From Spongiibacter nanhainus (lineage in GTDB: Bacteria > Pseudomonadota > Gammaproteobacteria > Pseudomonadales > Spongiibacteraceae), in the NCBI RefSeq assembly GCF_016132545.1, contig NZ_CP066167.1:1391001-1455000 (forward strand): a stretch of 64,000 nucleotides of DNA. The letters run 5' to 3'. Shown here piece after piece: positions 19,542 through 22,960 of the stretch. Made by a program: the position numbers and the translations under genes. The notes under the pieces are model-generated. The model was not told the origin of the DNA. It saw nothing but the letters and a program-made list of their open reading frames with translations, and searched no databases. Position 1 is the first letter of the stretch. Each line of letters opens with the position of its first letter.

Positions 19542-19622
19542 CCCTGTCCACGTCTCAGATAGTATGACTCTCCGCGGTGCCCATTGAATCGATGTGCGCC
19601 GCGTTTTATTTGGAGCAACGTT

Positions 19623-21077
19623 ATGTTGTCACTCAATAACCCCGAACTGTTTCGTCAACAAGCCTATGTGAACGGCCAGTGGGTAGATGCCGAATCGCCT
19701 ACCCGCACCACCGTTACCAATCCCGCAACCGGCGAAAAACTGGGCGAGATTCCCTGTTTGGGCGAGGCGGAAACCCGCCAGGCCATTGCCGATGCCGACG
19801 TCGCCTGGAAGGACTGGAAAGCCCTTACCGCCAAAGAGCGCTGCGCCTATCTGCGCCGCTGGTTTAATCTGATTCAGGACAATGCCGAAGACATCGCTCA
19901 GATCATGACCGCCGAGCAGGGCAAGCCCCTGGCGGAGGCTCGGGGTGAAGTCCAGTACGCGGCGTCATTCATCGAGTGGTTTTCGGAAGAGGGCAAGCGC
20001 GCCTACGGTGATGTGATTCCCACACCCGCCGCCGACAAACGCTTGGTGGTGGTCAAGGAGCCGGTGGGAGTCTGCGCGGCGATCACCCCGTGGAATTTCC
20101 CTGCGGCGATGATTACCCGCAAGGCGGCGCCGGCACTGGCAGCCGGTTGTACCATGCTGGTCCGCCCTGCCGACGCGACACCCTTTACCGCCCTGGCTCT
20201 CGCAGCATTGGCCGAACAGGCCGGCATACCCGCCGGTGTGTTTAACGTGCTGACCGGGAAATCCCGGGTGATTGGCGCCGAGTTAACCACCAACCCAACG
20301 GTTCGCAAATTGTCCTTCACCGGCTCCACCGAAGTAGGTCGCAAACTCGCTGAGCAGTGCGCGCCGACTCTGAAAAAGCTGTCGCTGGAACTGGGCGGCA
20401 ACGCGCCCTTTATCGTATTTGACGACGCCGATATCGACGCCGCCGTTGAAGGCGCGATGATGTCGAAATTCCGCAACACCGGGCAAACCTGTGTGTGCAC
20501 CAACCGCCTCTACGTCCACGACTCAGTCTACGACGAGTTCGCCAAAAAACTGGCTGAGGCGGTTAACGGCATGAAGGTGGGCAACGGCACCGAAGAGGGT
20601 GTCAACCAAGGGCCTTTGATTGATGACGGCGCGGTTATCAAAGTAGAAGAACATATAGCCGACGCTGTGCAACATGGTGCCTCCGTTATAGCTGGCGGTG
20701 AACGCCACGAGCTGGGCGGTAACTTCTTTAAGCCTACCGTACTGGCCAACGTCAATCAGAAAATGTTGATTACCCGGGAAGAGACCTTTGGCCCGGTGGC
20801 GCCGATCGTCCGCTTTAGTTCAGACGAAGAAGTGGTAGCTCTGGCCAACGATACCGAGTTTGGCTTGGCATCCTACTTTTACAGTCGGGATATCGGCCGG
20901 GTATGGCGAATTGCCGAAGCGCTGGAATACGGCATGGTGGGAATTAACACCGGGATTATCTCCAATGAAGTGGCGCCCTTTGGTGGGGTGAAGCAATCCG
21001 GCTACGGGCGCGAGGGCTCCAAGTACGGAATGGATGAGTATCAGGTGATTAAGTACCTGTGCATGGGGGGGGTGTAA
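19623..21077 (+). CDS. NAD(P)-dependent aldehyde dehydrogenase (succinate-semialdehyde type)
   Basis: The preferred start is the ATG at 19623 (484 residues), preceded by GGAG; the open frame extends to 19584 but lacks a ribosome site. The catalytic Glu is in LELGGNAP near 255, the catalytic Cys in GQTCVC near 289, and cofactor-site residues lie in TPWNFP near 155. It most resembles GabD/SSADH. It closes the E1-lipoyl-Rieske cluster, 81 bases after the oxygenase, and would oxidise the aldehyde released from an acyloin or side-chain cleavage. The real substrate is unknown. Confidence 0.9.
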   Translation: MLSLNNPELFRQQAYVNGQWVDAESPTRTTVTNPATGEKLGEIPCLGEAETRQAIADADVAWKDWKALTAKERCAYLRRWFNLIQDNAEDIAQIMTAEQGKPLAEARGEVQYAASFIEWFSEEGKRAYGDVIPTPAADKRLVVVKEPVGVCAAITPWNFPAAMITRKAAPALAAGCTMLVRPADATPFTALALAALAEQAGIPAGVFNVLTGKSRVIGAELTTNPTVRKLSFTGSTEVGRKLAEQCAPTLKKLSLELGGNAPFIVFDDADIDAAVEGAMMSKFRNTGQTCVCTNRLYVHDSVYDEFAKKLAEAVNGMKVGNGTEEGVNQGPLIDDGAVIKVEEHIADAVQHGASVIAGGERHELGGNFFKPTVLANVNQKMLITREETFGPVAPIVRFSSDEEVVALANDTEFGLASYFYSRDIGRVWRIAEALEYGMVGINTGIISNEVAPFGGVKQSGYGREGSKYGMDEYQVIKYLCMGGV

Positions 21078-21138
21078 GCTTTTGCGCTACGCGCGTTTTG
21101 GGGCGGCTTTGTCGTTGTTTGTATTGGCATAGGGATAG

Positions 21139-21779
21139 CGGGTGTTTCGTTTGGGCCGTGCTTGGCCCTCGCCCTGCGGGCACGCTGTCGAGGGGATATT
21201 TGCTATTCCATAGCACGGGTTTCGCCCTGCTGGGCGAGTTCCTTTTCTTTGTTTGGCCAAAGAAAAGGAACCAAAAGAAACGCCACCCTATCGCTCGGCC
21301 TTCGGCTACCCTGCGCTTCTCGCCATTCAATGAAAACGCTGCGGAACTCGCCTGACGGCTCAAACAGTCCTCGCTAAAAGCCTTTCATTGAATGGCTGCG
21401 ATGCTCGGCGAGCTCAAAGGGGAATAAACCCCCGGTGCCAGTAGCTGGAAAAGAACATCATTTTCTCCGTGTGGCACCCCCGGGCCCCTTCAGGGCCGCT
21501 GAGCATCGCAGGGACAAAACGGAATAAGCGCGAGGACTGTTTGAGCGAAGCGAGTTCCGCAGCGCCCGTTTTGGCCCGAGAAGCGCAAGGAACTGCTGGC
21601 GTCTTTTTGCCAGCAGCGGCTCTGCAGGGTGTCTTTTCTCTTTGCTTACTTTCTCTTTGGACAAGCAAAGAGAAAGTCAGTCGCCCAGCAGGGCGAAACC
21701 CGTGCTATGGAATTGCAAATACACATTCGACAGAGTGCCCAACGAATAAAGGGCCGCAGAAAGCCCAAATAAAACCCGT
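21139..21779. repeat. Large imperfect palindrome (two inverted copies of a ~320-bp repeat)
   Basis: Nearly the whole gap between the aldehyde dehydrogenase and sulfotransferase genes is one imperfect inverted repeat centred near 21459. Matching pairs include TTCCATAGCACG (21206) with CGTGCTATGGAA (ending 21712), CTGCTGGGCGA with TCGCCCAGCAG (21681), GCTGCGGAACTCGC (near 21342) with GCGAGTTCCGCAGC (near 21549), and GGTGCC (21434) with GGCACC (21473). Each arm carries its own smaller hairpin (TTCCTTTTCTTT...AAAGAAAAGGAA on the left, CTTTCTCTTTG...CAAAGAGAAAG on the right). Short open frames inside it have no gene character. It looks like two head-to-head copies of a dispersed non-coding element. 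Confidence 0.8.
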
Positions 21780-21835
21780 GCTGTAAGCACAAAAAAACCA
21801 CCCGGCAGGGTAAACAAAAACGATAAGAGTCAACT

Positions 21836-22960
21836 ATGCAAACAGCCAAAGCCTTTATGGACCAGGCGCAGCGTCAATCGGGGCTGTCTGACTTTGGTCC
21901 CGATAGCTTCCGAGAGGGACTGGAAGTGCTCACTGACTCTCTGTCCCAGGAGGCTCGCCTCAACGAGTTGGGTGAGCAATTTCTCAGCCACCGGATTGTT
22001 ACCCATCTCACCCAGCGCTTGCAGGTGGAGGAGTGGTATCGCCGCCACCCGGAAATCGATGACGAGCCTATCGACAAGCCCTTGTTTGGTTTGTCCCTGC
22101 CCAGAACCGGATCGACGGCGCTGTCCTTTCTGCTGGCCGAAGACCCCGAAATTCGCTACCTGCGGCGCTGGGAGGCGGCGCAGCCCTGCCCGCCGCCGGG
22201 AACGGTGGAGGGCGATGACCCGCGGGCGGTGGAGGAGCGGCAAAAACAGCAGCGCGCGGGTCTGCAATCCCACACGCCTTCCGGGGGCAAAGAGGCGGCG
22301 GAGTGCCAAGACCTTATGGCACTGGATTTTAAATCCCATATCTTTCAGGCCTTTGCCTATGTGCCTCGCTATTCGGCGTGGTTGTTGGACGCGGATCTGG
22401 AATCGACTTATCGCTATCAGCGCCGGGTGTTGAAGCTTTTGCAATGGCAGATGCCGACCCGGCCCTGGCGGCTTAAATGCCCCACCCATTTGCTTTTTCT
22501 CGACGATCTTAACAAGGCCTTTCCCGATGCGCGCTTTGTAATGACCCATCGAGATCCGGCCGAGGTCATTCCGTCGGTGGTGGATGTTTACGCCGATATT
22601 TTGTGCCGTTTTACCGAGCACAGCGATAACGATTACTTGATCGAGCTGAACCTTCAGCACTGGTCAAAGGGTATGGAGCGCACACTGGCGTTTCGTGACA
22701 AGGGGCACGAGCACCGGTTTTACGATATTGCCTTTAGCGATATGCAGGCCGATCCCATTGTGCAAGTCTGCGGCTTGTATGGGTGGATGGGGGAGGCGGT
22801 CAGTGAGGCTTTCCGGGAAGGTATGGCCCGCTGGTGGCAGGACAATGAAAGTCAGCGCCAATCCCGTCCCAAGGGGCTGTCGCCAGGGCAACGTTACGGA
22901 ATCGATGTCGAGGCGATGCGGCCCTATTTCGCTGGGTACTGCCAGCGTTTCTCGGGGTAG
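21836..22960 (+). CDS. Sulfotransferase family protein
   Basis: A 374-residue protein of the PAPS-dependent sulfotransferase fold. The 5'-phosphosulfate loop reads LPRTGSTALS near residue 89 and the 3'-phosphate-binding segment FVMTHRDPAEVIPS near 234. Related proteins are frequent in actinobacterial and marine gammaproteobacterial catabolic clusters, where their actual role is often unproven. It is the first gene of a five-gene run ending with a molybdopterin oxidoreductase. The fold is confident; sulfonation of the substrate or an intermediate is a hypothesis. Confidence 0.85.
   Translation: MQTAKAFMDQAQRQSGLSDFGPDSFREGLEVLTDSLSQEARLNELGEQFLSHRIVTHLTQRLQVEEWYRRHPEIDDEPIDKPLFGLSLPRTGSTALSFLLAEDPEIRYLRRWEAAQPCPPPGTVEGDDPRAVEERQKQQRAGLQSHTPSGGKEAAECQDLMALDFKSHIFQAFAYVPRYSAWLLDADLESTYRYQRRVLKLLQWQMPTRPWRLKCPTHLLFLDDLNKAFPDARFVMTHRDPAEVIPSVVDVYADILCRFTEHSDNDYLIELNLQHWSKGMERTLAFRDKGHEHRFYDIAFSDMQADPIVQVCGLYGWMGEAVSEAFREGMARWWQDNESQRQSRPKGLSPGQRYGIDVEAMRPYFAGYCQRFSG

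Follow-up and report, generated by a model that had tools for sequence, protein, structure and literature searches.

An intergenic palindrome of Spongiibacter nanhainus as the probable empty copy of a mobile, two-armed element used by relatives as a gene-cassette platform

Our analysis indicates that the palindrome located between two genes of Spongiibacter nanhainus is probably an empty copy of a mobile, two-armed palindromic and recombining element, which relatives use as a gene-cassette platform. In this lineage the whole two-armed unit multiplies and recombines. Its building blocks are hairpins set about a core found in several phyla, and the arms of this kind in Gallionellaceae enclose foreign genes that have been swapped. 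Since arms of this type bracket foreign genes in some related bacteria, the copy studied here may be a vacant site at which mobile genes can land. Throughout, "the window" denotes the whole 64,000-nt stretch of DNA that was analyzed (contig NZ_CP066167.1, positions 1,391,001 to 1,455,000), to which all five-digit coordinates refer. The names of the flanking genes, sodB, ubiD, ubiX, rpsH, rplF, and others given without a cited family search are our reading of the ORFs.

The original prediction described a ~640-bp palindrome at positions 21139-21779, and this was confirmed by inverted repeats found across that interval (Table 1). They include arms of 68 nt at 21178-21245/21673-21740 (87% complementary), 27 nt at 21396-21422/21485-21511 (78%), 17 nt at 21358-21374/21530-21546, and 15 nt at 21337-21351/21550-21564 (both 100%), with further arms besides. 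Inside this interval lies a 479-bp unit with sharp bounds from END to END, beyond which the outer modules are weaker and vary in extent between copies. The halves of the unit are identical at 181 of 266 aligned columns and their alignment scores 84, compared with at most 12 when 2-base blocks were shuffled 300 times. The center near 21459 is correct, and the arms have diverged, as had been proposed. Arm divergence and a 62-bp spacer would make an empty palindrome tolerable. The internal hairpin foreseen for each arm was also recovered, with a perfect 14-bp stem on the left and 15 pairs (93%) on the right. The palindrome fills the gap between two ORFs of the + strand, one aldehyde dehydrogenase-like (19584-21077) and the other sulfotransferase-like (21836-22960). 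Several ORFs of 60-105 codons cross it on both strands (window positions 21049-21786); these follow the repeat and are probably spurious.

From the outside in, each arm begins with two hairpins, the small terminal END and the longer P2. A connecting stretch follows, then a stem, variable in sequence, that closes the core, and lastly an inner segment. The core itself is made of CTGCGGAACTC, a covarying mini-hairpin, and CTCARACAGTCCTCGC. By eye, Gallionellaceae arms show the same order of parts; their END, P2, and stems have other sequences and remain paired. Among the loci examined, cores lying 40-420 bp apart were arranged as + then - in 27 of 28 distinct cases, with a median spacing of 229 bp.

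Table 1. Features of the palindrome in window coordinates
Feature	Position	Strand	Basis
Extended palindrome, with weaker, partly truncated outer inverted modules	21139..21779		Inverted-repeat search, copy alignment
Two-armed unit from END-L to END-R, sharp bounds	21220..21698		Copy alignment, halves alignment
END-L, TTTCGCCCTGCTGGGCGA, small terminal hairpin	21220..21237	+	Same motif at both ends of six copies
Hairpin P2-L, 14-bp perfect stem	21238..21271	+	Within the block of 20 linked sites swapped between copies
Left core hairpin, stem 21323-21335/21383-21395 enclosing the core	21323..21395	+	Inverted-repeat search
Left core, CTGCGGAACTC-mini-hairpin-CTCAAACAGTCCTCGC, sense	21339..21374	+	Core pattern matches
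Left inner segment, inverted match to 21485-21511	21396..21422	+	Inverted-repeat search
Central spacer; the inner segments on its two sides enclose the cargo genes of filled relatives	21423..21484		Loci of relatives
Right inner segment	21485..21511	-	Inverted-repeat search
Right core hairpin, stem 21515-21529/21566-21573	21515..21573	-	Stem by eye
Right core; + strand contains GCGAAGC	21530..21562	-	Core pattern matches
Hairpin P2-R	21645..21680	-	Inverted-repeat search
END-R	21681..21698	-	Motif common to copies

The S. nanhainus genome is a single contig of 4,078,570 bases, and the palindrome is one of six two-armed copies within it. Matches to the left arm number 15 and those to the right arm 16, and every one of them falls within these six copies. 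The suggestion that the palindrome represents two head-to-head copies of a dispersed repeat thus holds as regards dispersal and needs refinement as regards the unit, since what disperses here is the whole two-armed palindrome. From END to END the copies measure 472-480 bp and are 87-97% identical; the END motif differs by a single base, at the left end of the 683k copy, and a recognizable outer left module was seen by eye in four of the six copies and is absent from two. All six are empty of cargo. Long palindromes are generally prone to assembly errors, and an assembly or inversion artefact was one possible account of the second arm. Its probability is negligible, as one contig holds six copies this similar, each between flanks of its own, and congeners and other families share the architecture; an assembly inversion is thereby excluded in practice.

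Our data further show that the copies exchange sequence. Counting indel columns, 20 linked columns at 21238-21285 split the copies three against three (1412k, 640k, and 1460k vs 3259k, 273k, and 683k), and 22 linked columns at 21460-21622 split them two against four (640k and 273k vs the others). Because all four combinations of these left-half and right-half variants are present among the six copies, the copies recombine. Exchange or conversion between copies is the simple explanation of the swapped blocks, and repeated parallel mutation is unlikely. The left variable block amounts to an entire hairpin replaced by a different hairpin.

We then compared element sites across the genus. A blastn search with the whole element matched 24 of 57 genomes, S. 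nanhainus and all 17 congeners included, and the exact core pattern occurs in 16 of the 18 genomes of the genus; the other two (G001 and G007) have one blastn match each. One S. nanhainus copy is located behind the sodB terminator. Among the 17 genomes with a sodB match (18 searched), END or core motifs occurred in the next 1.5 kb only in S. nanhainus and G009, in a motif search that could miss degenerate elements. Their absence from 15 of 17 genomes indicates that copies have spread, and 12 of these 15 motif-free sites keep the same peroxiredoxin-like neighbor (turned round in G014). At the atpC site, an arm is present in 2 of 18 congeners. Other sites, such as that before ubiD, are common to several congeners, and some copies are therefore old. 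For the site studied here, G008 has the only close relative of the gene downstream (56% identity); no element lies upstream of it there, but the gene upstream is a different one.

In Gallionellaceae, accessory genes lie between two such arms. In three of these genomes (G355, G337, and G340), 7 of 8 exact inverted core pairs are 0.9-2.3 kb apart, while the close pairs listed for Azonexus and other genomes are 187-320 bp apart. Of the 38 cores at 30 loci in the Gallionellaceae cargo set, 2 make up an empty pair, and 31 are flanked by an ORF on the inner as well as on the outer side. With both arms of one cassette counted, GC3 is lower in the inner than in the outer ORF at 30 of 31 cores (medians 0.43 vs 0.73; Wilcoxon p=5e-7), and it falls below 0.55 in 29 of 31 inner ORFs compared with 4 of 31 outer ones. 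A Pfam search of the first 20 loci gave 43 families for 25 outer ORFs, with housekeeping functions prevailing among those listed (PolA, exonuclease VII, LptF/G, trigger factor, and others), and nine families for 21 inner ORFs. Within a cassette, the left arm shares 84.5-96.4% identity with the right arm over 224-309 nt in the six pairs fully within a locus; in three further comparisons with an arm cut by the end of a contig or locus, two of them at the same locus, identity is 90-91% over 107-207 nt. A second dispersed palindromic repeat, of the CCGTTCGTGCTGAGC...CGAAGCATGAACG type, is often found just outside the Gallionellaceae arms (L343, L348, L350, L384, and L385).

The ubiX-mutY locus shows exchange of cargo among five species (Ca. 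Ferrigenium altingense L339, Gallionellales bin L343, Sideroxydans L385, Gallionella L389, and Sideroxyarcus L195). Flanks and arms are kept there, with the flanks aligning at 66-86% and the arms at about 77-95%, and the interiors gave no blastn match at 1e-8 in any of the five species pairs compared, out of 10 possible. Conserved flanks and arms around exchanged cargo, the feature of a gene-cassette platform, are thus found at this site. In addition, one cargo gene, 83% identical over 1037 bases, occurs at two loci (L353 and L384) with different flanks and in opposite orientation to the left arm.

Defence as the main cargo theme was considered and rejected. With PADLOC models at 1e-5, only 5 of 20 cargo ORFs match (PDC-S67, a TIR effector, PDC-S33, AbiLi, and AbiLii), and 12 families were matched in the set of 25 outer control ORFs too, with a polymerase-related model as the best of them; enrichment for defence is accordingly not claimed. 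In the window's own genus, the only cleanly two-armed filled copy found is that of G013, where two clean arms surround a 1298-aa ORF matching PD-Lambda-4_A at 2.6e-54. At the atpC site of G012 and G006, one arm lies beside AT-rich ORFs and a second arm was not found; one cargo comprises a GmrSD_N ORF matching NsnA at 7.2e-37 and a weakly SIR2-like ORF, and the other gave weak HATPase and DrmA matches only. Of 10 ORFs picked by hand, five matched nothing at 1e-3: two in L100 and the ones in L118, L121, and L182. A general cargo rule over all phyla is unsupported: outside Gallionellaceae, cores with no close partner gave no significant signal, inner GC3 being lower than outer in 30 of 54 (p=0.40).

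These results also bear on a simpler account, that of a plain selfish palindromic repeat (REP-, ERIC-, or MITE-like) dispersed by a transposase, in which the Gallionellaceae accessory genes merely landed. The element is multi-copy in most carriers examined, most lineages give no cargo signal, the S. nanhainus genome holds no cargo, and insertion sequences land in the element too. Several copies in G014 (L093 and L095-L098) hold the same transposase-like ORF, by our reading IS481-like, beside the core, four of them between core and END; this ORF may be a later insertion and is not general among copies. We nevertheless regard a purely selfish repeat as rather unlikely, given that foreign-looking ORFs lie inside the Gallionellaceae arms and rarely outside, that a fixed site holds different cargo in five species, and that a core shared across phyla is not known from REPs, one of which is described as species-specific in P. 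putida. As a separate observation, copies of an IS110 transposase-like ORF lie inside the arms at two loci of one genome (L391 and L392 in G358), adjoining AT-rich cargo.

No mobilizing enzyme emerged from the families that were searched. Y1 transposases gave 0 matches in the complete S. nanhainus genome and are absent from 9 of 24 element-bearing genomes, S. nanhainus included; 12 Y1 loci examined, out of 25 Y1 matches, contain no core. RAYT/IS200 as the mobilizer was rejected on these grounds, being unlinked to the element, and the same Y1 search of 24 carriers and 12 loci linked no recombinase to it. Target-site duplications were not recognized by eye in alignments of the six copies and of the Gallionellaceae outer ends.

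The core recurs in several phyla. The pattern GAACTCG N{1,16} CTCARACAGTCCTCGC was found in at least 120 stretches in a scan of one genome per species, and the record titles among 80 listed core stretches name Gamma- and Betaproteobacteria, Nitrospirales, Coriobacteria/Eggerthellaceae, Barnesiella, Prevotellaceae, Patescibacteria, and Gastranaerophilales. All 36 genomes searched whole hold the core, in 1-25 copies each, with 0 matches to the reversed pattern, and CTGCG directly before the pattern is nearly constant though it lies outside the query. The isolates among the listed stretches are Proteobacteria (Dechloromonas hankyongensis, Niveibacterium, Sulfuricella, and Litorivivens). Outside this phylum the core comes from uncultured genomes only, one of them at chromosome level (OX638327.1, Nitrospirales), and single assignments may therefore be wrong; several copies per genome with lineage-specific stems speak against simple contamination. 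Occurrence is patchy: counting S. nanhainus in each case, the exact pattern is present in 7 of 274 genomes of a class sample, and a covariance model found 2 of 299 genomes of a phylum sample, a lower bound because only 17 first-look candidates were scored per listed genome.

Carriage of the whole element by plasmids or phages was likewise rejected, since the whole-element query returned four plasmid records with only 47-58 bases around P2 and no phage record. These short matches around the P2 hairpin, to records of Aeromonas caviae and Pasteurella multocida (86-89%), stop short of the core. In a viral collection the core occurs in 1 stretch (L288:9046-9081); an ORF beside it matches PDC-S31, a defence candidate, at 6.4e-48.

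The core shows strong covariation. In 50 diverse cores, the apical helix shows 63 two-sided changes compared with 23.1 in shuffled alignments, a value reached by 0 of 500 shuffles, and its covariation score is 0.403 vs 0.113 when shuffled; five of its six pairs vary, none with a one-sided change, and a single G-U occurs, in the sixth pair. Across 105 distinct mini-hairpins, the Watson-Crick fraction is 0.85, and exchanging halves between hairpins lowers it to 0.53 (maximum 0.63); the 556 positions comprise 470 paired, 3 G-T, 12 A-C, and 71 other. A GNA or GNNA loop is present on the antisense strand in 44 of the 66 apical hairpins that have a clean stem and a loop of 3-4 bases, and on the sense strand in 0 of 66; the other 39 of 105, with interrupted stems or longer loops, were left unclassed, and some Patescibacteria apices do not fit the rule. 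According to PMC4686876, GNA/GNNA loops on G-C stems form extraordinarily stable DNA mini-hairpins, GCGAAGC melting at 78°C. The right core in the window carries this very heptamer. The antisense loop rule favors a folded single DNA strand, the antisense one. Calculated strand energies make the antisense strand slightly more stable, in part a flank effect, and were given no weight. An attempt to separate RNA from DNA by G-T and A-C mismatches in the outer stems was abandoned because groups disagree (Patescibacteria, 23 G-T and 41 A-C; Barnesiella, 16 and 2; other loci, 150 and 108).

Strong covariation would also be in keeping with a structured RNA, or with an RNA-processing or termination element transcribed from the neighboring genes, as would the sites in Patescibacteria. 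In three of their genomes, the core lies on the strand of both neighbors at 30 of 35 distinct fetched sites (two reversed, three mixed), starts 40-75 nt after the upstream ORF (22 of 35), and leaves 35-60 nt between its end and the following ORF (16 of 35); one core hairpin sits in sense within a ribosomal protein operon, between rpsH- and rplF-like ORFs (L268, Patescibacteria genome G350, C5). That the core follows gene direction there points to RNA or transcription, and for Patescibacteria at least, an effect tied to transcription is plausible. Elsewhere, orientation is mixed: the single cores of loci L128-L247, a few Patescibacteria included, divide into 22 ++, 17 --, 13 +-, and 6 -+, and those of Barnesiella into 2 ++, 2 --, 4 +-, and 3 -+. 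By simple ORF calling, 13 single cores of L128-L247 apparently lie inside ORFs and 8 far from any ORF, and the core pairs of these loci comprise 7 codirectional, 4 convergent, 1 divergent, and 3 inside ORFs.

Nor did the earlier suggestion that the sequence serves as a terminator pair, nuclease, or structured RNA gain support. Rfam returned no family at the gathering threshold for the whole window, for this region searched to E 1, or for eight loci; the sole match in the eight loci was an unrelated tRNA, and in the region only miRNA-precursor models appeared, far below their gathering scores. The "skipping-rope" idea was dropped, having no Rfam match. Promoter-like matches were not found in the region, and its 5 terminator-like stems (1.8 expected) are a trivial consequence of the hairpins. 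With an apical helix almost devoid of G-U and a loop rule that fits DNA, we consider the RNA alternative improbable.

Under the reading that we prefer, the mobile two-armed element, the arms would act as both boundaries and landing homology for gene cassettes. Incoming arm-cargo-arm DNA may recombine with resident arms, so that cargo is swapped or inserted through them and an empty palindrome, the form presumably present in the window, would serve as a landing platform. Inverted arms would permit inversion of the cargo, not its simple deletion as direct repeats would. The core would be a putative recognition site, read as a folded single DNA strand by a trans-acting enzyme that spreads the unit. 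More tentatively, we can extend this to a class of mobile gene cassette across bacterial phyla, a possibility that we put forward with some doubt: a conserved DNA hairpin, with a GNA/GNNA loop at its apex on one strand, would be recognized as folded single-stranded DNA by an undescribed recombinase, inverted pairs would form landing platforms where accessory genes, some for phage defence, are inserted, flipped, and swapped, and the window would hold an empty platform.

The element was compared with several known systems. Integron attC sites are folded hairpin sites beside single AT-rich accessory genes; the element would work like attC, and it differs by its two inverted arms per cassette and a different conserved motif. 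In the minimal mobile elements of Neisseria, differing cargo is acquired between fixed conserved flanks via transformation and homologous recombination. The likeness lies in cargo that differs between fixed flanks, whereas here the exchange boundary is a dispersed hairpin-rich repeat at many sites. REP/BIME sequences with their RAYTs are likewise intergenic dispersed hairpins that form inverted pairs and spread in host genomes. S. nanhainus, however, has no Y1/RAYT, and its element has a core shared across phyla; REPs exceed 100 copies according to PMC2817692, and instead of a short high-copy repeat of tens of bases we found a 479-bp unit in six copies.

Among intergenic repeats of Pseudomonas fluorescens, PMC2718517 describes R178 (101 bp, with an internal 11-bp inverted repeat) and R200 (320 bp). 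Both resemble the element in being intergenic and of moderate copy number and, compared by description only, remain candidates. Correia repeat enclosed elements are dispersed, with inverted repeats and a conserved core (PMC2649163); compared by description, the element differs from these and from MITEs in that its arms bracket cargo in some clades and its core is common to phyla. Tn7-like transposons, which carry defence cargo according to PMC8649781, share defence-type cargo between inverted ends, and no transposition gene (Tns) is present among the nine Pfam families matched by the 21 cargo ORFs. Overall, the element acts as dispersed palindromic repeats do, and in some clades its behavior is that of a gene-cassette platform; it lacks the REP/RAYT features that were tested, and no Rfam family fits it. 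In the accessible open-licence PMC text, including that of PMC2718517, PMC2267715, and PMC4686876, we found no description of the element, and no paper there was found to contain any of the six core strings that were searched.

The same 27 core bases surround a freely covarying mini-hairpin from Patescibacteria to Proteobacteria, a recurrence that even a dispersed palindrome does not explain. If the cassette reading is true, a DNA hairpin common to distant phyla would mark places where accessory genes are taken up and swapped in the absence of a recognized transposase. New accessory and defence genes could then be looked for between the arms by means of a simple sequence, and the search for the enzyme that reads the hairpin would become concrete.
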